Part shown: one piece after another, positions 4,141-17,469 of the stretch | Numbering within the stretch: position 1 is the first letter of the stretch | How the letters are laid out: every line of letters begins with the position of its first letter | Assembly (NCBI GenBank): GCA_937920635.1 | Contig: CAKZUE010000033.1 | Coordinates: 1 to 64,000 of the forward strand | Reading direction: 5' to 3' | DNA: 64,000 nt | Origin: an uncultured Bryobacteraceae bacterium | Lineage (GTDB): Bacteria; Acidobacteriota; Terriglobia; Bryobacterales; Bryobacteraceae | Made by a program: the position numbers and the translations under genes | Notes under the pieces: model-generated | The model's database searches: none | The model's input: the letters and a program-made list of their open reading frames with translations, nothing else | Told to the model about the DNA's origin: nothing

Positions 4141-6099
4141 CTACCAGCCGCAGTTCAGGCAGGGCAGCCAGACGGTGTAGTCAGCGGGGCCGCGGTCCTG
4201 GAACGCGTAATACGGGATGAACGTCAGCCTCACGGGCTTCAGGGGCGTGACTGGCTGGAACCCGTACAGCGGCCGCTGTTCCAGCGGCGGGCTGTAGGCG
4301 AAACCTCCCGTCTGGAGCCGCAAGGCGCCGGCGGGCGCCGCCATCGGAGGGAGGGTCTGGATCGAATCGCCGCCGGAGAGTGCGACCTCGAAGACCGACA
4401 TGCCGGGATTGTCAATCGACTCGAGGCAATAAATGAACGGTCCGCGCTGCAACGCCGCCTTTCCGTAATCCTCGGCCACGCGGGGATTGGCGAAGACGCG
4501 GCGCGGCGTCATGTCGAACTCCAGCCGCACCTTGTCGCCGGGCCGCCAGAGGCGCTTCCAGGCCACATATTCGTTCGGCCGGAAGGGGCCGCTGACGCGC
4601 TGCCCGTTGATCTCGACATAGGTGGACGGAGACCACGAGGGGATGCGGACGTGCAGCGTAAACTCCTCCTCTTTCCGCGGCGCCACGGTGATCTCCGTTT
4701 CGCCCTGCCAGGGCATGGAGGTCTTTATGGCGAGCCGGAGGGGCGTGCCGGACTCGAGTTTCCAGTCGAGCGTGGCGTTGTCGTAGAAATGCACCCAGAC
4801 GCCATCCTGGGACGTGCTGAAGAAATAGCCGCCCAGCGCGGTGAACGTGCGCTGGAGGTTGGGCGGGCAGCAGGTGGTCGAATACCAGGGATTGCGGATC
4901 ACGTCGGAAGACGGCGCGGCGAGAGGATTCCGGTAGCAGTACAGCGTGCCGTTCGACGACATCCCCGAGCAGATGCCGTTGTACAGGGCGCGCTCCATGA
5001 GGTCGGCGTACTTTGCGTCTCCCGTCAGATGGAGCAGGCGCTGTTGGAAGAGCATTCCCGCGATAGCGGCGCAGCTCTCCGTGTACGCCTGGAGATTCGG
5101 CAGCTCGTAGGGATCGCCGAAGGTCTCGCCGGCGGCGCGGGAGCCGACGCCGCCCGTGACATACAGCTTGCGGAAGGCGAGGTCTTCCCACAGGCGCAGA
5201 ATCGTGCCGCGGAAGGCGTCGTTGCCGGTTTCGAGAACAAAATCGGCGGCGCCGGTGGCGGCGTACAGCGCCCGGACGGCATGGCCTTCGAACTGCGTCC
5301 GTTCGGTGAACGGCTTGCCGGAGAATGTGTAGACCAGGTCGCGTTCGCGCAGCTTCAGGCGCTCGCGCTCGACGCCGCTGAACAGGTAGGCGGCAAGCTC
5401 CAGATAGCGCCTGTCGCCGGTGGTGCGGTACAGCTCGGCGAGCGCGAGTTCGAGTTCGGGGTGGCCGGTGAGCAGCGGCCGCTTGGGCGCTGGGCCGAAG
5501 TCGCGCAGGAGATATTCCACAAATTTGATGCCGCCGTCAAGCAGCTTCCGCTTGCCCGCGGAGCGGTAGTAGGCGATGCCCGCCTGGAGGAGGTGGCCGA
5601 GGCAATAGAGTTCATGGCCGGTGACCTGCTGCTGCCAGCGCAGCGGGGCGCGTTCGTCGACGAACCAGGTGTTGAGATACCCGGAAGGCTCCTGCGCGGC
5701 GAGGATCGTATCGGTGAGCTGATCGAGAGCAGCCTCCAGCTTGGGGTCGGGCCGCACTTGCAGGCTCCAGGCGGCGGCCTCCATCCACTTGTAAAGATCG
5801 GAGTCGGTGTAGAGCGGGCCGCGGCGCGGCGGCTGGCGGTCCGGGCGGGCGAGCCGGCGGAAGTTGTCGACGATGCCGTTCTGTTCGAGCAGCTCGAGCA
5901 AAGTGGGGATGGACCGCTCGATGGTGACATCCTGGCGGGTCTTCCAGAATCCTGGCTGGAACTGGACGGCGCGCACAGGGACCGGGTGAAGCCGGGCGTG
6001 CGGGCTTTTCTGCAAATGAAGCAACCCCTCTTCGCGCCAGGCCGGCTGGGCGGAGCAGGCGGTGGCGAAGGCGAGCGCCGTCAGGATCGCGATACGCAT
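4141..6099 (-). CDS. GH127 (DUF1680) beta-L-arabinofuranosidase-like enzyme, secreted
   Basis: This 652-residue protein has a Sec signal peptide (MRIAILTALAFATACSAQ). An alpha/alpha barrel is followed by beta-sandwich domains, as in GH127. The metal-cysteine site of the family is visible: Glu341 and Cys343 in TESCAAIAG, and the Cys pair 410-411 in STTCCPPN, one of which is the nucleophile in characterised members. It should therefore cleave beta-L-arabinofuranosides or related pentosides outside the cytoplasm; the exact substrate is unknown. The ATG has no Shine-Dalgarno sequence but is preceded at 6 bases by TACAAC, a leaderless pattern. It lies downstream of the flippase gene on the same strand. 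Confidence 0.9.
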   Translation of the reverse strand: MRIAILTALAFATACSAQPAWREEGLLHLQKSPHARLHPVPVRAVQFQPGFWKTRQDVTIERSIPTLLELLEQNGIVDNFRRLARPDRQPPRRGPLYTDSDLYKWMEAAAWSLQVRPDPKLEAALDQLTDTILAAQEPSGYLNTWFVDERAPLRWQQQVTGHELYCLGHLLQAGIAYYRSAGKRKLLDGGIKFVEYLLRDFGPAPKRPLLTGHPELELALAELYRTTGDRRYLELAAYLFSGVERERLKLRERDLVYTFSGKPFTERTQFEGHAVRALYAATGAADFVLETGNDAFRGTILRLWEDLAFRKLYVTGGVGSRAAGETFGDPYELPNLQAYTESCAAIAGMLFQQRLLHLTGDAKYADLMERALYNGICSGMSSNGTLYCYRNPLAAPSSDVIRNPWYSTTCCPPNLQRTFTALGGYFFSTSQDGVWVHFYDNATLDWKLESGTPLRLAIKTSMPWQGETEITVAPRKEEEFTLHVRIPSWSPSTYVEINGQRVSGPFRPNEYVAWKRLWRPGDKVRLEFDMTPRRVFANPRVAEDYGKAALQRGPFIYCLESIDNPGMSVFEVALSGGDSIQTLPPMAAPAGALRLQTGGFAYSPPLEQRPLYGFQPVTPLKPVRLTFIPYYAFQDRGPADYTVWLPCLNCGW

Positions 6100-6105
6100 G
6101 GAATG

Positions 6106-6111
6106 GTTGTA
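6106..6111 (-). promoter_or_regulatory. -10-like TACAAC, leaderless start of GH127 gene
   Basis: The hexamer TACAAC ends 6 bases before the ATG at 6099 and no ribosome binding site lies between, so transcription would begin at or next to the start codon. Confidence 0.4.
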
Positions 6112-6132
6112 TCAAACCGGACGGCGGGCAGG

Positions 6133-7701
6133 TCAGCCCAAAGGCGTGCGAAGTTTCCTGAGCATGAACTCGCGGTCTTCGGCGGTGGAGAAGAGTAGAA
6201 AAGCGGCGGCGCCGGCGGCGGCGCTGAGAATCGCGGCGAGGAAAAGGACAGGCCAGGAGGAGATCACGAGCCAGCGCTGAAGAAAAGCTGCGGCGATCCC
6301 GGCAGCGGCGCCTGTGAGCAGGGCTGGCGCCAGACTGCGGAACAGATAATCCGAAAGGCGGATACCCGATTCCCGCAAGGCATAGGGCACCAACGCAAAC
6401 ACGGCGATTCCGATGCTGGAGATGAGCTTGGCCAGCGCCACGGCGGCGATTCCCCTCCAGCGTACGGCGGCAACGCCCGCACAGACGACAAAGATGGCCT
6501 CGACACCGATCACCGCAGTAACAAAGCGCAGGCGGCGCGTGCCCAGCAGATACTGGTACGGAACAGAAACGAGTGTACGGAAAGCCATTGCCAAAGCGAA
6601 AACGGCCAGCACGACATCGCTGCGGCTCCACCAATCGCCTGCCACATACTTGGGGCCCACCCACAGGGAGAGGAACGGCCCGCCCAGCGACAGGACTCCG
6701 CCCAGAATCAGAAAGGATATCGAGCAGATCCAGCGGTTGGTGCGCAACAGGAAGGCCCGCAGCATGTCCGGGCTGCTGGAGACGGACAGAGCGGTGAAAT
6801 AGGGGGCAAGCACTGCGGAGAGAACGTTGGTGAAGCTGCGGGTGTGGAGCGCGAGATAGCGGCCAATGTGATAGTGGGCCACAGCCGCGGGACCCGCCGC
6901 CTGAACGATGACGATCTGGTCGGCCTGGAATGCGAGCAGTTCGCTGATCCGCATCATCAGATTCGCACTGCCGTATGAGGTCAATTGAGACACGATCGCA
7001 CGGTCGAGCCGCGGAGGCCAGAGGTTCGCCGTCAGCTTCCAGCGGTTCAGGAGAAACTGCTGGGCGGCCCAGGGAAGCATCGTGCCAAAGGCCTGAGAGG
7101 CGGCGACGCCAAACAACCCCATCCCCGCGCGGAGGGATGCCACCACCAGCAGACCCGTAAGCAGGGTGGCGGCAATGTTGGTCGCAACGAGCCAGTGGAA
7201 ACGCCTCAAGCCGCCCAGGACGGCGCCGGCAAGCGAACCGGTGAGATTCACCGAGAAAACTGCGAAACCCAGCCAAAGCACCGAGCGCACAGTGGCGGTG
7301 TCGAGCGGGCCGACGTCGATCCAGCGGACTGCGATGACGGCCGCCGGCCAACTGGCCAGCAGCCCGATGCAGGTGATGGCCAGCAGCAGCCAAAACGCGT
7401 TTCGAACGACGTTCTGGAGCTGTTGCAATGAGCCCATCGCCGATGATCGGGAGACGTAATAATTGATGGCGCTGCGCAAGCCGAGATCAAACAGGCCGAA
7501 GTAGCCGCCGAGCTCCCAGGTCACACTCAGCAGACCGTAGGAGGCATCGCCGAGGCTCCGCAGCACATACGGGGCGAGAAAGAACGTGACGAGAATCGTG
7601 ATGCCGAATTGCAGGCCGTTCAGCAGCGCGCCGCTGCCGGCGCCGATCGACTTGAAGGCTGGAGAAGTGCCGGGTGAAGCGGGGGCATCAGAACTGGCCA
7701 T
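6133..7701 (-). CDS. Polysaccharide flippase, MATE/Wzx-like (oligosaccharide_flip) family
   Basis: This is a 522-residue, highly hydrophobic inner-membrane protein with about 12-14 predicted membrane segments. Its N-terminal stretch LLNGLQFGITILVTFFLAPY followed by VLRSLGDASYGLLS is characteristic of Wzx/RfbX/MATE-type flippases that move lipid-linked oligosaccharides across the membrane. I chose the ATG at 7701 because GGAGGA lies 8 bases upstream; a longer frame to 7764 has no such site and adds polar residues. It follows the GNAT and asparagine-synthase-like genes, separated from the GNAT by a 164-base gap holding a strong hairpin. Together they look like part of a surface-glycan locus, though no glycosyltransferase is next to them. 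Confidence 0.85.
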   Translation of the reverse strand: MASSDAPASPGTSPAFKSIGAGSGALLNGLQFGITILVTFFLAPYVLRSLGDASYGLLSVTWELGGYFGLFDLGLRSAINYYVSRSSAMGSLQQLQNVVRNAFWLLLAITCIGLLASWPAAVIAVRWIDVGPLDTATVRSVLWLGFAVFSVNLTGSLAGAVLGGLRRFHWLVATNIAATLLTGLLVVASLRAGMGLFGVAASQAFGTMLPWAAQQFLLNRWKLTANLWPPRLDRAIVSQLTSYGSANLMMRISELLAFQADQIVIVQAAGPAAVAHYHIGRYLALHTRSFTNVLSAVLAPYFTALSVSSSPDMLRAFLLRTNRWICSISFLILGGVLSLGGPFLSLWVGPKYVAGDWWSRSDVVLAVFALAMAFRTLVSVPYQYLLGTRRLRFVTAVIGVEAIFVVCAGVAAVRWRGIAAVALAKLISSIGIAVFALVPYALRESGIRLSDYLFRSLAPALLTGAAAGIAAAFLQRWLVISSWPVLFLAAILSAAAGAAAFLLFSTAEDREFMLRKLRTPLG

Positions 7702-7746
7702 GCCATTCCTCCAGAGGCGGATCCGGGTACGCATGGGGCAGTGGTT

Positions 7747-7781
7747 GCGGGAGTGCCCCATCAATGCGGGGGCACTCCCGC
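7747..7781. repeat. Perfect 13-bp inverted repeat (GC-rich hairpin) between GNAT and flippase genes
   Basis: The arms 7747-7759 (GCGGGAGTGCCCC) and 7769-7781 (GGGGCACTCCCGC) are exact reverse complements with a 9-base loop. The structure sits in the GNAT-flippase gap 46 bases upstream of the flippase ATG. No T run follows on the minus strand, so it is more likely an RNA-processing or attenuating element, or a protein site, than a simple terminator. Confidence 0.7.
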
Positions 7782-7865
7782 GAAGAGCGGCCCTTGGGCA
7801 AAGCCAGGCAGAACGGGGCGGGCATGGCTGTCATTGGCGAGATGCGGCGGACAGCAGAGCGGGGA

Positions 7866-8519
7866 TCACCAGCCGGATTCCCCCGCTGAAAACAGCAGCG
7901 AGGCCGCCCTGCGGGCGCCCAGAAAACCGGTCTTGCTGCCGTCAGACACGAATTCCATCCGGTGCCACCGCATTCCGGCCAGTCTCCAGGAACAAATTGC
8001 CAATCGGCGCCTCCATTGGAGTTTCGAGAAAAGCGCGTGCATGGGGAAATTGTCTGTCACGCAGGCGCTATGGGCTGTCAACTCCGGTTCACGAGTGACG
8101 AAGCATTGGTACATTGCGCCGGCCAGGCCATGCCGCCGCCAGGCGGGCGAGACGAGCACCTTGGAGATGTACACGTGCCCTGCCGGCAAAGGCGCTTTCA
8201 AATCCAAAAAATCGATCCGGGCGACGCGCCGTTCCACCCACAGGTAAGAACAGATGCGGTTGTCTCGAATGGCAGCGAGCATATCGGAGTCGCCCCGCTC
8301 GAGCCACTGCCGCGCCTCCGGCAGCGAGAGCCAGCCGCCGGGGTATTGCAAAGGCTCGAGCTCCTCCGGGCGCAGGAAACGGAACTCGAACCCGGGAGGA
8401 AGCGCAAAGCCGTCCGGTACTGGCCGTGGCGGGCGGCAATAGAAGACCAGTTGCCGCCAGTAAGCAGACAGGCCAAGCCTCTGCTGATACCACTGAAGGT
8501 GTCTCCACAGCTTGCTCAT
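7866..8519 (-). CDS. GNAT-family N-acetyltransferase
   Basis: The protein has 217 residues. The acetyl-CoA-binding motif of the GNAT fold is visible in VYISKVLVSPAWRRHGLAGA (about residues 115-134), that is VxVxPxxRxxGLA, and the preceding strand RIDFLDLKAPL fits beta4. The acceptor is unknown. Its position between an asparagine-synthase-like gene and a flippase suggests acylation of a nucleotide sugar, glycan or amino acid in the same pathway, but that is inference from context. It starts 18 bases after the stop of the asparagine-synthase-like gene and is probably co-transcribed. A short inverted repeat (AGCGGGG/CCCCGCT, 7858-7887) straddles its stop codon. Confidence 0.8.
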   Translation of the reverse strand: MSKLWRHLQWYQQRLGLSAYWRQLVFYCRPPRPVPDGFALPPGFEFRFLRPEELEPLQYPGGWLSLPEARQWLERGDSDMLAAIRDNRICSYLWVERRVARIDFLDLKAPLPAGHVYISKVLVSPAWRRHGLAGAMYQCFVTREPELTAHSACVTDNFPMHALFSKLQWRRRLAICSWRLAGMRWHRMEFVSDGSKTGFLGARRAASLLFSAGESGW

Positions 8520-8537
8520 GATCAGCTTCGCAGTCCC

Positions 8538-10256
8538 TCACTGCGCCCGGCGTGTTCTGCCTGCCCAGTACGCGTCGGTGAGCGCCAGCACGGGGCGGAA
8601 CAAATGAGAGAAGTCTCCGATTCCTGCTTGATGCAAAACCGCGGCAGCCGCCAGCAGCGGCACATTCACGATGTGGCCCGGAATCCGCCGCGCGAACAGC
8701 TCCGCCAGCAACCGCCGGCAGTGTTGTGCGCCTCTCCACCGGCGGTTGTCTTTGACCAGTTCCCATTGCGATTTCAGGGACTCTGCGCCATCCTCTCGCA
8801 CGGGGCTTGGCAAACGCCCCGGATACTCCTGCCAACCAACGCGGAGACAGGAATCGGGCATCAGTCTCAGGACTTCATGGTAGAGACGATGATGGAGGAA
8901 AGGATCCAGCGGGGGCGCGATTTGGAGCACGGATCGGATCACTCTTCGGTCATAGAACGGGGCCGCAAGTTCGGCGCCAAGGCGGGGCGCGGCCTCGAGA
9001 AAATCGTGCAGATGCCGCCGGAGGTCTTCCGTCAGCACGAAAAGATGCATGGCCTTCTGCGGCGGCACGTGGGGCCAGCGATCCAGCGCGGCCCGCATCG
9101 CTTGCCGGGGCCTGTGCTCGAGGATCTCCCGCCAACGTCTTCGGAAGGGCCTTGGTGGCGCCCCGTGGCCCTTCAGGTAGGAAACGATGGCGGCATCCAC
9201 CTCGTTTTTCGCCAGCAGCGACATGGTCTCGGGCGGCATGAGCAGAAACCCGAGTGTTTCTCCGCCGCCGTCGCCGCTGAAAATGCGGCCCGGCAGAAAG
9301 GGGCGGGCCGCATTGCTCAGGACCGCCACGGCGGTGGCTCCGATGGTGACAGGCGGAGGATCGATATTGTGAGGGGACGCGTCGAGTTCGATGCCAAGAA
9401 GCGCGGCGAATCGCGTGGCGTAGTGGTAATCCCGGCTCTCAGGAATCTGGAGAGTCGCCGCCCGGACATGAAAGCCCATGTCATGCAGCAGCGCCGTGAC
9501 GCAGCGGGAGTCCAGGCCTCCGGAGAGCAGCGTCTGCACCGCAGCGCCTGGGGAGCGTGGCGCGCGGTCTCGCACGGCCGCGGTGAGCGCGGCTGCACAC
9601 TCAGCCGCAGCGGCGTCTAACGGGAGAGCGCGGAACTCAAGCCGGGACCAGTCGAAGTAACGGCCGCGCCGAATCCCTGAGGCTTGCCGGCAAAGATACT
9701 CGGAATCCCGCAGGACGCGGATCTCGCGATACAGCGTCAGGTCTCCCAGCGGGTAGCAGAACGCCTCTTGCTCGATGAACGCAGCGATGTCGAAAGTGCG
9801 CGGGACAGCAGGAATCCGGAGGAGAATCTCGAGGATGGTGGAAAAATACAGGGTGCCAGCGGATTCAACGAAGTATAGTGGCCACCCGCCAAGGCTGTCG
9901 GCTGCAAGCCAGAGGCGGGAAGAAGCTGCATCCCATGCCAGTGCGGCGAAAGTCCCGTTCGCCTGCGCGAGATCCTCAGGCCGGTTCTCGATCAGGCATC
10001 CGAGCAGCTGAGCCAGTCCGCCAGAGCCGTCTTCCGGCGGCTGCTCACCCTCCCAGAGGAGTTCGCCTGCCGCGGCGGCGATTCCCTGAGGGGATTCCAG
10101 CAAGGCAAACGACCGCGGCATTGGCGAACCGCACCACAGAGAGAGGGGCCCCTGGTGCAGCGGCCTGGCAGCCAGATTCATCTCCTCCAGAGCACGTTCG
10201 ATGTCCCGCGCCGACCCGGTTTCGTTCCCAGAACCGAAGTAGCCGCAAAAGAACAC
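8538..10256 (-). CDS. Asparagine-synthase-like protein with a non-N-terminal class II amidotransferase Cys
   Basis: The protein is about 572 residues. The N-terminal half has the class II glutamine amidotransferase pattern (FFCGYFG, GTFAALAWD, LAADSLGGWPLYF). The C-terminal half is an asparagine-synthase ATP-pyrophosphatase domain with the loop LLSGGLDSRC near residue 243 and a GDGGGE segment. Its role is adenylation of a carboxylate and amide formation. A functional glutaminase needs Cys as the first residue after Met, but with the GTG start the Cys is codon 4 and no start codon immediately precedes it. Glutaminase activity is therefore doubtful, as in lasso-cyclase and beta-lactam-synthetase relatives. 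The start is supported by TACAAT 6 bases upstream. It heads the minus-strand arm with GNAT and flippase. Confidence 0.82.
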   Translation of the reverse strand: MFFCGYFGSGNETGSARDIERALEEMNLAARPLHQGPLSLWCGSPMPRSFALLESPQGIAAAAGELLWEGEQPPEDGSGGLAQLLGCLIENRPEDLAQANGTFAALAWDAASSRLWLAADSLGGWPLYFVESAGTLYFSTILEILLRIPAVPRTFDIAAFIEQEAFCYPLGDLTLYREIRVLRDSEYLCRQASGIRRGRYFDWSRLEFRALPLDAAAAECAAALTAAVRDRAPRSPGAAVQTLLSGGLDSRCVTALLHDMGFHVRAATLQIPESRDYHYATRFAALLGIELDASPHNIDPPPVTIGATAVAVLSNAARPFLPGRIFSGDGGGETLGFLLMPPETMSLLAKNEVDAAIVSYLKGHGAPPRPFRRRWREILEHRPRQAMRAALDRWPHVPPQKAMHLFVLTEDLRRHLHDFLEAAPRLGAELAAPFYDRRVIRSVLQIAPPLDPFLHHRLYHEVLRLMPDSCLRVGWQEYPGRLPSPVREDGAESLKSQWELVKDNRRWRGAQHCRRLLAELFARRIPGHIVNVPLLAAAAVLHQAGIGDFSHLFRPVLALTDAYWAGRTRRAQ

Positions 10257-10834
10257 GCCTTTATTGTAGAGGCTGCGCCGCCAAACTGCACGAGTTCCAC
10301 CACGAACAGCGGGATCCGCGCAAATTCCACCGCAGTCGCTCGATGCGGAGCCGGACCGGAGTTTCGACGGCGCGCCGCCTGACCAACCCCCGTCATGCCG
10401 GAGTTCGCCACAATCGGGCACAACCCGGGAGGCTCCCATTTCTGACACGCCGGCAGGTTTCTCATTCTGGATGCAGCCGTATCCAGTGCACTGGAATGCC
10501 TGGGCGGGGCGCGTCTGGTTCGCAGACAAGCGGACGGTGCTTTGTTGGGAGAGAAAAATCTGGCCGCGTGGCGAGGTGTAGGCCGCTCTGGCTTGCCGGA
10601 TTCCTTTCCCTGCCTGACCGGAACCGGTATCCCAGGCACCGTGTGCTGCCCGAGTTTTCGTGGCAGTGGCCCATCCAATGGCGCGAAGAATTCCGGCGCG
10701 ATGCTTCCGCGCCGCATGGTATCCTGTGTTGTCGCTGCCACACCTTCCGATCCCGAGGTGGCAGCAAAACCTATATAGAGAGGCAGACGGCGGCTGCACC
10801 CAGCCCTGGCGGGGGAAGTCTTCCGTTGTGGTTG
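10257..10834. other. Divergent intergenic region, 578 bp, no supported gene
   Basis: Long open frames exist on both strands, but their translations look like random GC-rich sequence (many Arg, Pro, Ser and stray Cys, no domain pattern). The region separates the two arms of the putative glycan locus and should carry their promoters. Visible elements are TACAAT at 10263-10268 for the minus arm, an inverted repeat (GCTGCCAC at 10734-10741, GTGGCAGC at 10758-10765) and a TATATA box at 10772-10777 on the plus-strand side. Confidence 0.6.
10263..10268 (-). promoter_or_regulatory. -10-like TACAAT at leaderless GTG start of asparagine-synthase-like gene
   Basis: TACAAT is followed by AAAGGC and then the GTG at 10256, so the spacing is 6 bases. 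A good -35 was not seen. The spacing suits a transcript that starts on or beside the start codon. Confidence 0.45.
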
Positions 10835-11893
10835 ATGACGGGGAACGCGCTGGCTTCACAAAGGTTTCGGCTGGTAATCGCCGGATGTGGCGCGATTACG
10901 GCCAGCAGCCATCTTCCTGCTGCATTGCGGTCTCCGCTGGTGGAAGTCGTAGCCCTGGTGGATCCGTCTCTGGCCCGGGCGGACTCGCTCGCGCAACAGT
11001 TCGGCATTCGGCCGCGCCTGTGCCTGCGGCTCGAGGAGGCCATCGAGGGTGCGGACGGGGTGCTGGTGGCCACGCCTAACCACACGCATCTGGAACTCAC
11101 GGCAGTCTCGCTGGGCCGCGGAGTGCCCGTGCTGGTGGAGAAGCCGATGACGGCGACACTCGATGAAGCGGACCGTCTGTGCGCTCTGGCCCAGGAGCGG
11201 AACACGGTTGTAGCGGTGGGATTCTCCACCCGGTTTTACCCGGCCGTGGAGTTGATGGAGCGCCTTCTTCGGCAAAAATACTTCGGCGCCGTGCGGTCCC
11301 TCCGGTATGAGTTCGGCACCCGGGGAGGGTGGGCGCCGCTGTCCTCGTACAATCAGGACAAGTAGGCATCTGGAGGCGGCGTCCTTGTTGTCACCGGCAG
11401 CCACTTTCTGGACCGGGTCATCGCGTGGTTCGGCTATCCGGAAGTGTTGGAATACCGGGATGACAGCTTCGGAGGCCCGGAAGCGAACGCGTTTGGCCGG
11501 CTGAGGTTTTCGCCTCCGGGTTCGGAACCGTTCGAGGCGGCCTTCCTGCTGTCGAAGACCGCTGCGCTCAAGAACCGAATCGTACTCGAGACAGAAGCGG
11601 GCCTGTGCGAGCTGGGAGAATCGGAAAGCGCCGAGATTTCGCTTCGCCCCGCTTCGGCTCCGGATCTGCTGGTGCGCATCTCAACCAACCGCCCCGATAG
11701 GGCCGGTATGCGGGCGGCGCAGGCGCAACTGGAGGATTTTGTCAACGCAGTGCGGAAAGGCTGTGCGCCGCGTGTCGGATGCGAGGCCGGCCGTCTTTCG
11801 GTGCAACTCACGGCCAGTCTGTACGCGGCACGGCAGCCGCTCCCGGAGCCCTGGATGTGGTACGCCTCCCGGCGTTCGGAGCAGCGCGCATGA
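10835..11893 (+). pseudogene. Gfo/Idh/MocA-family oxidoreductase interrupted by an in-frame TAG
   Basis: The N-terminal Rossmann half (VIAGCGAITASSHLPA, then VLVEKPMTATLDEADRLC) reads from about 10835 to a TAG at 11363-11365. The same frame then continues without another stop to 11893 with exactly the expected continuation: a GGGVLVVTGSHFLDRVIAWFG segment, the usual Gly-rich loop and His-x2-Asp helix of the Gfo/Idh substrate domain. The intact protein would be about 352 residues with the stop at codon 177. A single C-to-T change of CAG would explain it. It is a recent pseudogene, a sequencing error or, less likely, read through. A TTG at 10826 is an alternative start with better spacing to GGGGGAAG. 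The stop overlaps the epimerase start as ATGA. Confidence 0.8.
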
Positions 11894-13056
11894 AGGACGG
11901 TACGCTGGTCGTATTCGGCGCCTCCGGACTGGTGGGGGGAGCTCTCTGCGAGAGACTGTTTTTCACGGGCGAGTGGCGCTTCGTTCCTGTGATCCGCTCC
12001 AGCGGCGGCGCGGCGCGGCTGGCAAGATTGATGCCCGCCGAGACGTTTGTGTTTGCCGATCTACTGGACCCCAATTCGTTCCGCCGCCTGCTTGGCGAAG
12101 AGTCAATTGTCGTCAATTGCGCGCGGGGAGGCGATGCGGATATGCAGCGCGGCCTCCTGAACCTGATCAGCGAGTGCCGCCGGCGACGCGTGCGCAAATT
12201 CATCCACATCAGCAGCGTCGCCGTTTTCGGAGATGACCCGCCACCCGGGAGCGAACAGCCAGGTTGCACCGAATTCCGCCTGCTGACCGAATACGGCCGG
12301 ATCAAACGCTGGCAGGATGAGCAGGTGCTGAAACTGCACAGGCAGGGCATTCCCTCGTACATTCTTTGTCCGGGAAACATCAGCGGCCCTTACAGTTCAT
12401 GGTCCGCCGGTTTCGCTTCAAGGCTGTTGTCTCATGCCCTGCCGCTGGTGGACGGCGGGCAATACCCGGTCAACGCAGTTCATGTCGACAATCTTGTGGA
12501 GGCCCTGCTCGCTGCCGCTGCCGCGGCGAGTGGCGCCGGACAAAGGTATTTCGTCAACGAGCCGGATCCCGTCACATGGCGGCAATATGTAGAGGATCTC
12601 TGCCGGATTCTTGATATTCCGCCGCGCACCCTTCCGGTAAGCAGAGAGGACGTTCTGCGGTTCATGCGGACGCCGGCGCCGACCGCCGGTCTGACAGAAC
12701 ATCTGAGAATCCTGCTCTCCGGCGAATTTCGCAATGCCGTCTCCATGCTGCCTGTAATGGCTTGGCTGAACCGCAAAGCTGCGGCAACCTTCGAATCGTT
12801 GCCACGCCACTGGCGCGCAGCTATCCGCCGGAAGATGAGCCGGCCGGTGACGATCGCCAGGCAGGCAACCGGTCCCGACCTGTCGGAATCCTGGGTCCGG
12901 GTGCAAGTGAGGCGCACGTTCCATAGTCCGGCCAGCCTTGCTGCAGGACTTGGTTGGCGTCCCGTGTTGAGCTACGAGGAGGGGCTCCGGTTGACTGGCG
13001 AGTGGCTTCGCTTCATTGGTCTCCACGGGGCCGGATCCGGGAGCGTGTTGTCCTGA
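11890..13056 (+). CDS. NAD(P)-dependent epimerase/dehydratase (extended SDR)
   Basis: This 388-residue protein has the extended-SDR cofactor motif GASGLVG near residues 10-16, the active-site Ser strand HISSVAVFG and the catalytic YxxxK (EYGRIKRWQDE). It should act on a nucleotide-sugar or similar substrate as epimerase, dehydratase or reductase; the substrate is not evident. The ATG overlaps the stop of the interrupted oxidoreductase (ATGA), which implies translational coupling and possible polarity from the upstream TAG. About 80-100 residues after the usual core (FMRTPAPTAG onward, with MSRPVTIARQATG) form a tail also seen in epimerases of polysaccharide clusters. It likely works with the flippase arm. 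Confidence 0.88.
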   Translation: MKDGTLVVFGASGLVGGALCERLFFTGEWRFVPVIRSSGGAARLARLMPAETFVFADLLDPNSFRRLLGEESIVVNCARGGDADMQRGLLNLISECRRRRVRKFIHISSVAVFGDDPPPGSEQPGCTEFRLLTEYGRIKRWQDEQVLKLHRQGIPSYILCPGNISGPYSSWSAGFASRLLSHALPLVDGGQYPVNAVHVDNLVEALLAAAAAASGAGQRYFVNEPDPVTWRQYVEDLCRILDIPPRTLPVSREDVLRFMRTPAPTAGLTEHLRILLSGEFRNAVSMLPVMAWLNRKAAATFESLPRHWRAAIRRKMSRPVTIARQATGPDLSESWVRVQVRRTFHSPASLAAGLGWRPVLSYEEGLRLTGEWLRFIGLHGAGSGSVLS

Positions 13057-13464
13057 TGGCAGATGTCGTTCTCAGGACGGCTCATGAGATCTCAGATCTT
13101 TCCTTGCGGCGGTTCTCACCGGAAACGTGTTGAATCCAGATCCCTCTACGATGCCGGAAAGGCAGGCAGCCGCCATATCCGATGCCTGAATGGCAAGCAC
13201 CGCCAGGCTGCGCCCGGGGGCGGATCGCATTGGGATTGGCGCGACACCAGCGGGCCAGCCCGGACGAAGCCGGCGCCCTTAAACCGGGAGTGGGGTGGTT
13301 TTCCGGTAGATTCCAAACGCCGCCCGCCACGGCAGTAACCTGGCGGGCTGGTGCTGACGTCTCATAGACAATCCCCGTTACGAGTGCGGGCGCCCTCACC
13401 CCAACACCCAACCAAAAGGCGCCCGCATACCTCCTGCCTGGAATCGCCCCCTCTTCGCCGTCAC
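13057..13464. other. Convergent intergenic region, 408 bp, no supported gene
   Basis: This stretch lies between the epimerase stop and the stop of the peptidase-glycosidase gene. I see no domain-like ORF on either strand. The only clear structure is the hairpin at 13385-13427. The remaining sequence looks like decayed or non-coding DNA with a slightly more even base composition than its neighbours. Confidence 0.55.
13385..13427. terminator. Hairpin in convergent gap
   Basis: A perfect 10-bp inverted repeat (TGCGGGCGCC/GGCGCCCGCA) with a 23-base loop lies between two converging genes. No T tract follows, so a terminator role is inferred from position only. Confidence 0.35.
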
Positions 13465-16400
13465 CTACAAAGGCCTTTCCGTCGTGATCTCGTACCATGG
13501 GGTTTCGGCGCTCAGGCGGAAGCGGTAGCCCTGCGGCGTCTTCTCCACCGGAATGGACCCAAGACGCTTGCCCGTCCCATCCAGCGGATACACCGAAATG
13601 GCGCGCAGCTTTGATTTGAGCGTCACCGTGGCTTCCACATGCTCCATGACCACGGTGCCGGAAACAGAAAAGGGCGAAGACGGCCGCTCCGGGTTCTCCG
13701 GGGCCAGCGTAAACCAGGACGGGTCCTTTTTGTACTGGATCAGTTTCTGGTTCTCGCCCAGCGTGAAGCCCGGACTGGTGAGCAGCAGCCGGGCTGATGT
13801 TTCCAGGGGCTTGCCGTCCAGAGCCGTGAGCAGGATCGACGCGAAACCACGATCCCGTGACGAGAGGGCAACCGTCACCGGTCCCGCCGTTGCAGGTTCA
13901 TCCAGCAAAAAGCCGAAAACGCCCGCCGCCTGTTCGGAGTGGATGAGGAAAAGCTGGCGCACGGGATCGTAGCTGATGTCGCCATTGTCGGCGCGATAGG
14001 GAGGCTGCGCCTTTTCTCCTCGGGGCGCCATTTCCACCGCGGGGTCGACCGCGATGCGGCGGGCAAAGGCGAGATTGGGATCAACGCCGAGGGTTTCAAA
14101 AAACGTGGCCAGGCGGAATTGCATGCGCTCAGCGGTGGCCTTTTCGCGCAGCGAGCGCGGCATCGGCACGACGAATTCGCGCTCCGCGGGGCGCACCAGG
14201 CCCTTGCGGAAAAGATAACCGGCCTGCCCAAAGGCGGCCAGTTTCGAGAAATCGCCGTTCAGGTTGAACCCGGAGGGCGCGTTGCGGTCCCAGGCGCGGC
14301 CATGTTCGTAAGCAAAGTGCATCACGCCGTCCCAGTCCTGGAAAGCCGAGAAGGCGGCGAACGTCGGATCGATCTCCGCAGCCTGGCGGTTGGGATAGGG
14401 CTGGTTGAATTCGCTCACGGTGTACGGCTTGTTGGCCTGCCGCGCGAAGGCTTTGTGGAGGTATTGCAGGTAGCCGGAACCGGCGCCGGAGGTGTCGCGG
14501 ATACGCCAGTCGGTCGAGTCCCAGGGGCGGTTCGGGAAGTTGTAGTGGTCGATGTAAAAGTGGTCGTCGATGTAGTCCAGTCCCGCGTGCGTGTCGAAGT
14601 GGAACGGACCGCCAAACTCCACCTGTGTGCCGGTGACCGGGACGGAGGGGCCCAACCGCTCCCGCACCGCGGCGGCGATGCGGTCCAGATACGCCTTGTC
14701 GCGGGCGATCACCTCCTCCAAGGTCGCGTCCGGCCAGTATTTCTTCAGCGCGCCGGTCTGGAACGAGTACAGCAGCGAGCTTTCATTGTTGATCTCGACC
14801 ATCGCGAGCACGGGGTCGTCCTTCAGGCGCAGCGCGTCGATGACCTGACGCGCGTATACGCACTGAAGCTCCACCATCCGGTCATTGAGTATGTGGACGG
14901 GCTTCGACTGGTTGGGGATGGGGAAGTCGAACGAGCCAATGGGATCGATGCCGGGGCGGAAGGTGTAGCCGACGTGCAGGTTGAGATTGACGTAGATGCC
15001 CTCTTCGCGGTAGGCGTCGAGCAGCGCCCGGAGGCGTTCCACGGCGACAGGATTCAGCGTGGGGTACGGGCCGGTGGTGAGGATGGAGCGGGCGTTCGCC
15101 GGATCTGCGTCGGGGCTTGTGTCCATGTGGTGCAGGCGGACGAGATTCACGCCGAGACGGCGCAGGCGCTTTGCGATTCGGGCGGCGTCGGCGGGCTCAG
15201 GGAAATTTCCGCCGAAGGCGAGGTTGACGCCCCAGAACCGGACGCGGCGTCCAAGCGCATCGACGAAACGCCCGTCCCGCACCGTGATGCGGTGATCCGG
15301 CGTCAGCGGCTGATTGAGGAACGAGAAGTCAACCGCGCCGATCAGGCGGTCCTGGTCGATGGAGACGCGGAACATCCGCGGCTCGGGTTCGGGCAATAGC
15401 GCCCGGTGCAGAAACGCCATCACATCGGCTGACTCGTCGATGATCTTGGACGTGGGCTTGCCAGCCCCGTGGCCGGCGGATGTTTCAATGCGGATCAGAA
15501 TGGGCGCTTCGCCGCCCTGCGCCTCCTGAAGCGTGGCCGCGTACTTGAAGGAATGCGCGGGAACGACGCGGTCGTCGTGATCCGCCGTGAGAACGAGCGT
15601 GGCCGGATACGCCGTGCCCGGGCGGATGTTGTGCAGCGGCGAATAGCGGTAGATAGTCTGGAATTCCTCGGGATTTTTCGGCGAGCCGTACTCGGTGGCC
15701 CAGGCGTGGCCGATGGTAAAGCGGTCGAAGCGGAGCATGTCCATCACACCCACCGCGGGAATGGCCGCGGCGAACAGGTCTGGCCGCTGGTTGACCACCG
15801 CGCCGACGAGCAGGCCGCCGTTGGAGCCGCCGCGGATGGCGAGTTTCCTCGCATTCGTGTACTGGCGGGAGATCAGGTGTTCGGCGGCGGCGATGAAGTC
15901 ATCAAACACGTTCTGCTTGTTCTGTTTCATGCCGGCGCGGTGCCAGTCCTCGCCGTATTCGCCGCCGCCGCGCAGGTTGGCCGAGGCGTAGACGCCTCCC
16001 CGTTCCAGCCAGGCGAGGGTGAAGACGTTGAAAGCCGGAGTGACGGAGATGTTGAACCCGCCATAACCGTACAGCAGGGCGGGATGAGAACCGTCCAGCG
16101 CAAGCCCCTTGCGCGCGGTGATGTAAATGGGGATGCGCGCGCCGTCCCTGCTGACTGCGAATTCCTGGCGGGTTTCGTACTTAGCCGGGTCGAAGGGCAA
16201 TTTCGAAGGAAACAGAGGGCTGCAGCCGCCCTCCGCGCAGCGGTACAGCGTCTCGGGCGTCATGAAGTTCGTCACCGAGAACACCGAGGAGGAGTCCTCG
16301 GCGAGCGTGATGGAGGAGTTCTGCGGCAGCGGCACGGAGCGCGGCGCGCCGCCGGAGAGCGGCACGACCTTCACCAGCGCCGAGACGTCATGCATGTAAT

Positions 16401-17469
16401 TCAGCACGATCTGATCTCCCGCGAGGCGAGCCTGGCGCAGCGTGTCGGCGGCTTCGGCTACCACGGTGCGCCAGTTGGCCGGGGCCGGATTTGTCAGATC
16501 GATCTCGATCACGCGGTAGCGCGGCGCGCCGTCGTTGGTGAGCAGCAGGATGCGCGAGCCGCGGCTGCCGATGAAGCGGTAGGAAAAACGGAACTCGCCC
16601 ACGATCGGCCTGGGCGCGGGTTCAGACGCCTGAAGGTCGATGGAGTGGATCAGGCGTTCAATCGCCGTGCTGCCAGCGGTCTCCAGGATCAGGTAGCGCC
16701 CGTCGGCGGTCAGATGCGGAGTGAACGACCAGCGGGGCTGATCAGGTCTGCGGTATGCGATGGTGTCCGCCGATTGGGGCGTCCCAATGCGGTGGTAGTA
16801 GAGAGTGAAGTTCTCGTTGACGGCTTGCAGGGCGGCGCCTTTCTGCGGCTCGGGATAGCGCCCGTACCAGAAGCCTTCGCCTTTTGCGTCCCATTCTGCG
16901 GACGAAAATTTCGACCACTCGAGCGTGTCGGGCAGATCCTTCGCTGAGGCGACATCCCGCACGCGCCACGTCACCCAGTCGGAGCCGGAGCGGGAGACGG
17001 CATAAGCCAGCAGACGTCCGTCGCGTGAGATGGAGAACGTGTTGATGGAAGCAGTGCCATCCGGCGACAGGGTGTTGGCGTCCAGCAGCACGCGGTCCTT
17101 GCCTGCTTCGCGCACATAGAGAACGGGTTGGTTTTGCAGCCCCGACTGGCGCAGAAATAACACGCGCGGACCACGGACGAAATAGCCCGCCACTGCGCCG
17201 CCGCCGCGATTGACCGTGGGGTAGCGGTCGTATTGATGGAGCCGCTCGAGCAGCGCCCGAATTGCAGGGCGCTGCGGGATGCGCGAGAGAAACGCCTGCG
17301 TGCGCGTGTTCTGCGCCTGGATCCAGGCGCGGGTCTCCGGCGAGTCCGGGTCTTCGAGCCACCGGAAGTTCTCCGTGACGGAGACGCCGTGGAACACCTC
17401 TGTCGTTGGCCTGGGCGTATTCTGCGCCGCTAGCGGAAGCCAGCAGAAGAACCAGACAAGCCTTCGCAT
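13465..17469 (-). CDS. Secreted fusion of prolyl oligopeptidase (S9A) and clan-A glycoside hydrolase
   Basis: One uninterrupted frame of 1334 residues. Residues 1-15 are a Sec signal ([11 protein letters not shown]). Residues about 20-693 are an S9A prolyl oligopeptidase: an N-terminal PxxTEVFHG...NFRWLED segment, a beta-propeller, then an alpha/beta hydrolase with Ser549 in RGGSNGG, Asp in TADHDDRV (about 632-633) and His667 in SAGHGAGKP. Residues about 700-1334 form a second enzyme-like unit with a TIM barrel ([22 protein letters not shown]). It has candidate acid/base Glu896 in VEINNES and nucleophile Glu1020 in YTVSEFNQP, and ends in a beta domain. Each half is normally a separate protein. 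The ATG follows TATGAT by 6 bases. The fusion could be real or could reflect loss of a stop between two adjacent genes. Confidence 0.88.

Follow-up and report, generated by a model that had tools for sequence, protein, structure and literature searches.

Does a cysteine at codon 4 of an asparagine-synthetase-like protein stand for the displaced nucleophile of a class II amidotransferase, and what could such a protein be doing if it does not? The question arises from a 64,000-nucleotide stretch of DNA of an uncultured Bryobacteraceae bacterium (hereafter the window), where a gene on the minus strand (8538..10256) starts with a GTG at 10256, runs down to 8538 and encodes 572 amino acids, comprising a degenerate glutamine amidotransferase (GATase) domain and a PP-loop synthetase domain. 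Its N-terminus reads V-F-F-C-G-Y-F and, as a preliminary description had pointed out, the TGC codon of Cys4 (10245..10247) is preceded by TTT, so that no start codon makes this cysteine N-terminal. The best reading of the analysis that follows is a glutamine-independent PP-loop enzyme, or a pseudoenzyme, belonging to a surface-glycan module. As a separate observation made by eye only, a TACAAT resembling a leaderless promoter lies six bases upstream of the GTG start (10263-10268, minus strand).

A rare branch of the asparagine-synthetase fold

In Pfam the window protein matches Asn_synthase (33 bits against a cut-off of 21) and GATase_7 (31.2 against 25), the latter over the last part of the domain only (residues 95-146). 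Matches in NCBIfam stay far beneath the cut-offs, both for TIGR01536, the glutamine-hydrolysing asparagine synthase (69.5 bits; cut-off 267.1), and for TIGR03108, the XrtA/PEP-CTERM EPS amidotransferase or WbpS (51.5 bits; cut-off 816.9). The AsnB, lasso cyclase and EPS amidotransferase model scores given in this work are those of the window protein, not of its relatives; the same five main NCBIfam models match all seven members of the branch to which it belongs, TIGR03108 among them and weakly so.

Some match to the protein is found in 82 of 101 genomes (the window's own, G000, and 100 relatives), yet the only close relative among them is in G004, 56% identical over residues 1-563 and with a frame starting MRMVYFCG (or MVYFCG), the next matches being partial (E 9e-19). 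When 237 genomes of the family were searched with a profile of these two sequences, members were added in G218, G216 and G196 (E 4e-102, 6e-62 and 1e-57; next 1e-22), and a five-member profile run against 396 genomes added G654 (E 1e-128) and G516 (3e-111), both in another family of the phylum, with the next hit at 3e-38. A further scan, run over 399 genomes of the class with E 1e-45 as threshold, gave four members, none of them new. These scans overlap and scored only the best five or three candidates per genome, so that members may be missed in the resulting count of seven members in two families of the phylum, present in 5 of the 237 genomes of the window's family. In a tree of 59 sequences (the seven members, 27 AsnB rows and 25 further hits from the phylum, two hits with no clear N-terminus having been dropped) the seven group together as a single long-branched clade, the split being labeled 1.0 on one side of the midpoint root and 0.945 on the opposite side. 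The phylogeny with AsnB proposed in the preliminary description sets the protein in a monophyletic subfamily, a rare one by the scans above.

With the G654 member as tblastn query, none of 252 plasmid records covers 80% of the query in one place, and no member of the branch is evident in the best 15 of those 252 matches; among viral contigs, none of 98 pattern-matching stretches encodes a branch relative. In a collection of named genomes, relatives turned up in 4 of 87 candidate stretches; they are 21-30% identical and have AsnB-type MCG starts. No title or abstract start describing this branch was found in the openly licensed literature searched, and there the branch is a variant of the AsnB-like kind with no matching description.

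Other AsnB-like frames with unusual N-termini were seen along the way. One in G052 (L018 / L073, G052:C575:10158-10712), only 315 amino acids long and starting MKICGFVG, also has its Cys at codon 4, and its neighbours look, by eye, like polysaccharide genes. Another in G461 (L082), outside this branch, starts MILGILDKD with the N-terminal Cys absent. Altogether, 4 of the 27 phylum hits checked (L082, L090, L094 and L099) have no MCG-like start, some of them perhaps being incomplete.

The codon-4 cysteine and the two active sites

When the seven members are aligned with the 27 AsnB rows, Cys4 falls on the Ala/Cys at position 5 of the AsnB strand MCGI(A/C)GIF. The position matching AsnB Cys2 is V, V, S, L, S, T and A in the seven members and position 5 is C, C, A, A, A, A and A, the latter being Ala (12) or Cys (11) in 23 of the 27 AsnB rows as well. 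The AsnB rows were chosen by a pattern requiring the cysteine, which makes its presence in 27/27 a matter of construction, and two of them (L009 and L068) are the same gene, leaving 26 distinct. The five members other than the window protein and G004 begin M-S/L/T/A-x-x-A-G and have no Cys at either candidate place. In this subfamily alignment the nucleophile is absent from all seven proteins, which, together with the loss of most of the glutaminase site in the window protein, tells against the earlier idea of a displaced but meaningful nucleophile.

Which register is preferred depends on the company in which the sequences are compared. A profile of the five other members favors the strand register over the nucleophile register for the window protein (4.85 vs -9.03 bits) and for G004 (-0.29 vs -8.16), whereas an AsnB profile gives a tie for the window protein (4.12 vs 4.10 bits) and prefers the nucleophile register for G004, with its FCGVCG (10.49 vs -3.29). 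Small MAFFT alignments of these two proteins with AsnB rows took the nucleophile register in four of five tests, and a separate alignment of the window protein with AsnB likewise set Cys4 in the AsnB Cys column; with branch members, MAFFT took the strand register in three of five single-member tests and in the joint test, and neither register with G654 alone or G516 alone.

The structure prediction called for in the preliminary description was also divided. A first model, built on an alignment already placing Cys4 in the AsnB Cys column and set aside as biased, has a pLDDT of about 49 over its first ten residues and superposes residue 4 on the first residue of both GlmS and PurF, and residue 3 on that of AsnB. 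The second, neutral model was built from the same rows minus their first 12 codons (from codon 13 on), which thus carry no N-terminal information; it has a pLDDT of about 74 over the first ten residues, forms a strand at residues 3-8, and superposes its own residue 1 rather than Cys4 on residue 1 of AsnB (1CT9), GlmS and PurF, a pairing that amounts to support short of proof, as VIA-align prints the first aligned pair only. By their numbering, we take residue 1 of those three structures to be the catalytic Cys. Taken together, Cys4 is most likely a strand residue, and its designation as the class II nucleophile is probably wrong, with the register left uncertain by the AsnB-only comparisons, which mostly give the nucleophile register.

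The remainder of the glutaminase half is eroded too. Among 17 AsnB-invariant columns in residues 1-105, the window protein keeps three and all seven members keep two. The columns changed in the window protein are Met1, Cys2, Arg31-Gly32-Pro33-Asp34, Arg50, Leu51, Asp55, Pro62, Asn75, Asn80, Asp99 and Glu101, of which the Met1 change is a matter of where the frame starts and the Cys column is invariant through row selection. The N-G-E of the AsnB motif NGEIYN is replaced by A63-G64-E65 (10062..10070, minus strand), Asn75 thereby becoming Ala63, and Asp99 becomes Gly80. G004 also has Ala for Asn75, and the pair has Gly or Val for Asp99; G216 keeps Asn75, and four members have an Asp aligned with Asp99, so the loss of glutaminase residues appears, from these alignments, to be deepest in the window/G004 pair. 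The placement of Arg50 varies between the two alignments made, the window protein having no Arg there in either and G004 having one in the second. Since the window protein has lost the RGPD, R50, N75 and D99 known from AsnB, its glutaminase looks dead in either register of the cysteine.

The synthetase half tells a different story only in part. The PP-loop SGGLDS (residues 245-250; 9507..9524, minus strand) is intact, as had been stated earlier, and SGG-x-DS is present in all seven members. Out of 21 AsnB-invariant columns in residues 191-460, 11 are kept by the window protein and nine by all seven members, the changed ones in the window protein being Val228, Pro229, Gly231, Leu346, Asp352, Gly357, Tyr358, Arg401, Lys430 and Lys450. 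The AsnB motif SG(E/D)G-x-D-E is replaced by SGDGGGE (residues 327-333; 9258..9278, minus strand), its D being lost in 7/7 members, where Asp352 has become Gly or Ser; Glu353 is kept in three members, the window's included. At the Tyr358 column the seven have L, L, L, V, V, V and V, four of them with a Phe one place earlier. Lys450 of E. coli AsnB (counting Met1), presumably the Lys449 of published accounts, is Trp in every member (Trp475 in the window protein; 8832..8834, minus strand), within a motif whose W475, Q476 and Y478 are invariant. A preprint on PesC describes a Tyr-acid dyad as conserved among the AsnB-like enzymes compared and as likely to act in amidation (PMC13060819); from the five-residue spacing shared by both pairs, we infer that this dyad corresponds to Glu353 and Tyr358 of E. 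coli AsnB. The change of Lys450 to Trp, the loss of Tyr358 and the change of Asp352 to Gly or Ser make ordinary amide chemistry doubtful, and, judging from these residues, the protein may do other chemistry, or none.

The cassette and its surroundings

Downstream of the AsnB-like gene, on the same minus strand, lie in order a GNAT acyltransferase gene (7866..8519), a Wzx/MOP-type flippase gene (6133..7701, its start predicted from the G004 copy) and a GH127 glycosidase gene. The GNAT passes PF00583 (27 bits against a cut-off of 20.7); the flippase passes no Pfam cut-off itself and is recognized by its 67% identity to the G004 copy, which passes Polysacc_synt_3 (30.4 bits against 23), and it also matches, at 33% identity (E 5e-59), the flippase adjoining the G216 gene. 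The partners named in the preliminary description, a GNAT and a flippase, are thus borne out. No RiPP partner domain (the lasso leader peptidase type included) was found in the neighboring ORFs scanned. Nor was any uronic-acid dehydrogenase or glycosyltransferase domain found in the window ORFs scanned between 101 and 24641, or any Rfam match at gathering thresholds in 6000-13600.

The corresponding site in G004 carries all three genes, with identities of 56% (AsnB-like), 57% (GNAT) and 67% (flippase), whereas six genes of the flanks are 81-95% identical to those of the window in the same comparison, a range that excludes TatD and galT, whose wrongly cut queries gave partial matches of 63-71% in G004 and G003. 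G003 has the flippase (60%), with the GNAT and the AsnB-like gene absent, and a GH127 that is nearer to the window's (91% vs 83%). Comparison of G004 with G003 therefore indicates that the cassette is gained or lost within the genus. Beside the GH127 of G001 and G002, neither the three cassette genes nor the other flanks were matched.

The region between GH127 and an S9 peptidase (6133-13056) is itself a variable island in the genus, its cargo differing among G000, G004 and G003 between compared flanks of 81-95% identity. Divergent from the AsnB-like gene, on the plus strand, is a Gfo/Idh/MocA oxidoreductase gene (10835..11893; PF01408, 85.5 bits) with one in-frame TAG (11363-11365), which is a nonsense mutation, a sequencing error or a mark of a decayed gene; in G004 and G003 the corresponding interval is not long enough for such a gene. 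Its stop is overlapped (ATGA) by the start of an SDR epimerase/dehydratase gene (11890..13056, plus strand), to which nothing at this site in G004 and G003 matches. Beyond it, a 1334-aa ORF on the minus strand (13465-17469), 87-88% identical in G004 and G003, has a prolyl oligopeptidase (S9) in its first 690 residues and about 640 further residues that match no Pfam family at 1e-5.

Across the branch, the AsnB-like gene is accompanied by a flippase or other polysaccharide genes in five of seven cases and is adjacent to a GNAT in three. The GNAT family itself is strong in 3 of the 237 family genomes (G000, G004 and G218) and weak in one more, and in all three strong cases it adjoins the AsnB-like gene; G196 and G216 have the AsnB-like gene and no match to a GNAT of the window's type. 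The AsnB-like, GNAT and flippase genes are found together in G000 and G004, which, as regards the EPS-type gene set, have the flippase and GNAT only. In G216, on a 5 kb contig that shows such a set in part, the gene adjoins a flippase and a TIGR03097-like ligase, which scores 161.3 bits where the cut-off is 188.1. In G196 and G654 it lies within a polysaccharide cluster. At the G196 locus a FemAB protein (TIGR03019) and a wecB protein pass their cut-offs, a TIGR03097-like ligase falls just short of its own (186.3 bits), and there is a TIGR03006-like deacetylase, incomplete at the end of the stretch taken; the G654 locus has a flippase above the Pfam cut-off, a deacetylase-like gene with weak model matches and, by eye, glycosyltransferase-like genes. 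Also by eye, G218 has the GNAT and no visible polysaccharide cluster, and G516 has neither. A glycan role, raised in the preliminary description as one option, agrees with the neighbors seen in the window and, of the six other loci, at four (G004, G216, G196 and G654); as for its call to look for co-conserved genes, the polysaccharide genes and the GNAT answer to it in five and three of the seven cases, but no cluster is visible in G218 and G516.

Possible functions of the protein

Several known systems resemble this protein in part. The neutral model matches known structures along its whole length, best of all the hydroxyamidotransferase TsnB9 (7YLZ; Z 27.3 over 487 residues), which is nevertheless remote at 16% identity. 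With E. coli AsnB (1CT9; Z 24.9 over 415 residues) the protein shares both domains, SGGLDS and SG(D/E)G, but it lacks the N-terminal Cys, has 14 of the 17 invariant glutaminase columns changed and carries Trp for the invariant Lys. Beta-lactam synthetase (1JGT, Z about 24) and carbapenam synthetase (1Q15, Z 22.1) also match in fold. These two enzymes combine a dead glutaminase domain with an active PP-loop domain and have an active-site Lys. The window protein shows the same kind of change in its glutaminase half. In its branch the AsnB Lys column is Trp and the AsnB Tyr column Leu or Val, columns that presumably correspond to the active-site Lys of the two synthetases and to the Tyr of the Tyr-Glu dyad which the title of a published study names for them. 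There is also a likeness to WbpS / eps_aminotran_1 (TIGR03108), formers of surface-glycan uronamides in the same fold family, whose flippase and acyltransferase surroundings are alike, whereas the window protein lacks most of the glutaminase site, Lys450 and Tyr358.

Separate relatives of the TIGR03108 type, which match that model better than the window protein does, covering most or all of it and none above the cut-off, occur in 10/10 genomes searched; in G196 and G654 the degenerate gene has one such copy on its own contig, some 16 and 19 kb away. In the window's genome, where two of these relatives (L001 and L002) were seen to have an N-terminal Cys, a full-length, Cys-bearing EPS-type amidotransferase relative lies at C46. 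Such separate relatives suggest that the window protein is an extra copy, specialized or non-catalytic, and, given the one at C46, amidation need not depend on the window gene.

What, then, might it do? In the reading that we prefer, and to which we give about even weight, this is a branch with a decayed glutaminase whose PP-loop domain activates a carboxylate in surface-glycan assembly. The sequence itself shows that the window protein has lost the nucleophile position, the oxyanion Asn and further glutaminase residues invariant in AsnB, and that it has kept the PP-loop. The N-terminal Ntn glutaminase would have decayed into a structural domain in a small monophyletic branch of the fold, while the C-terminal PP-loop domain would still bind ATP and, as a surface polysaccharide is being assembled, activate a carboxylate carried by a sugar or by a small acyl group. 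This activated group would be coupled to ammonia or to an amine, glutamine not being used; the neighboring GNAT would add an acyl group to that sugar, and export would fall to the flippase. Given the changed Lys and Tyr, the last step would perhaps not be ordinary amide formation. Apart from those changes, this reading has against it that the window ORFs scanned between 101 and 24641 gave no uronic-acid dehydrogenase or glycosyltransferase domain, that G218 and G516 show no polysaccharide cluster by eye, and that a Cys-bearing relative is already present at C46. A model is offered by the linking sugar of Porphyromonas. According to PMC7468200, P. gingivalis needs the AsnB-family WbpS for the uronamide of the linking sugar, and the wbpS gene lies immediately downstream of wzx (porS). 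The same paper has VimA, a protein with matches to N-acetyltransferases and to the FemAB-like TIGR03019, as the proposed aminoacylating enzyme for this sugar, and describes similar gene sets in PEP-CTERM loci. By analogy only, the window cassette may modify a sugar at both its carboxylate and its amine before export. The amide or lactam formation, with no normal class II glutaminase, that was foreseen in the preliminary description holds up as far as the missing glutaminase goes, but the change of Lys450 to Trp and the loss of Tyr358 weaken the amide or lactam itself.

The rival that survives best, a minority view that we nonetheless take seriously, is that neither half is catalytic and that the protein regulates the glycan machinery or acts as a scaffold in it, its partner perhaps being an EPS-type amidotransferase relative elsewhere in the genome. 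Such a pseudoenzyme would agree with the alteration of both active sites (3/17 GATase and 11/21 synthetase columns kept) and with the ubiquity of TIGR03108-like copies in the genomes searched, but it sits badly with SGGLDS being kept in 7/7 members of two families and with the same residue, Trp, replacing Lys450 in every one of them, since such retention and uniformity suggest a changed rather than a decayed active site. More tentatively still, and on balance doubtfully, the branch may be a distinct PP-loop family in which the invariant Trp-Gln-x-Tyr stands where the catalytic Lys would be, and which re-uses the AsnB fold for an ATP-dependent surface-glycan modification other than glutamine-dependent amidation.

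Some PurF and glutamate synthase enzymes expose their Cys by removal of a propeptide. A real glutamine amidotransferase in which Cys4 becomes N-terminal through loss of a three-residue propeptide is, we think, very improbable here: the AsnB-only alignments that set Cys4 on the AsnB Cys (four of the five MAFFT tests among them), the profile score of the G004 FCGVCG (the window protein giving a tie) and the Arg of G004 in the Arg50 column speak for it, but Asn75 is Ala in both proteins, Asp99 is Gly or Val, RGPD is lost, a Cys is missing from both places in the remaining five members, and in the neutral model it is residue 1 that superposes on residue 1 of AsnB, GlmS and PurF. Equally hard to credit is a lasso-type or macrolactam cyclase, or an enzyme forming lactams in the manner of beta-lactam synthetase, with a peptide or a small molecule as substrate; the fold is the same and weak NCBIfam matches to peptide-cyclase models exist, but these score far under their cut-offs (57.2 of 525 bits for the lasso cyclase NF033535 and 32.8 of 300 for the macrolactam model), and the AsnB Lys450 and Tyr358 are lost. 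A RiPP cyclase was accordingly rejected, no curated model being reached and no partner domain occurring among the ORFs scanned. That this is an ordinary asparagine synthetase whose start codon is wrongly placed, or whose sequence contains a local error, has the resemblance in its favor and nothing further, and is practically dismissed. A mis-set start or sequence error, with which close homologues would begin MCG, is refuted by the orthologue starting MRMVYFCG (or MVYFCG), by S, L, S, T and A at position 2 of the five others and by the absence of the nucleophile in 7/7 members.

AsnB-fold enzymes have repeatedly been turned to new chemistry, including lactams, peptide amides and nitriles (PMC13060819). 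A caution follows for proteins of this kind, namely that a Cys near the start of an AsnB-like protein need not be a displaced nucleophile. A monophyletic branch that keeps the ATP loop, carries Trp for a Lys invariant in AsnB in 7/7 known members and lies mostly beside glycan genes would add to the record of the AsnB fold either a new reaction or a clear pseudoenzyme.
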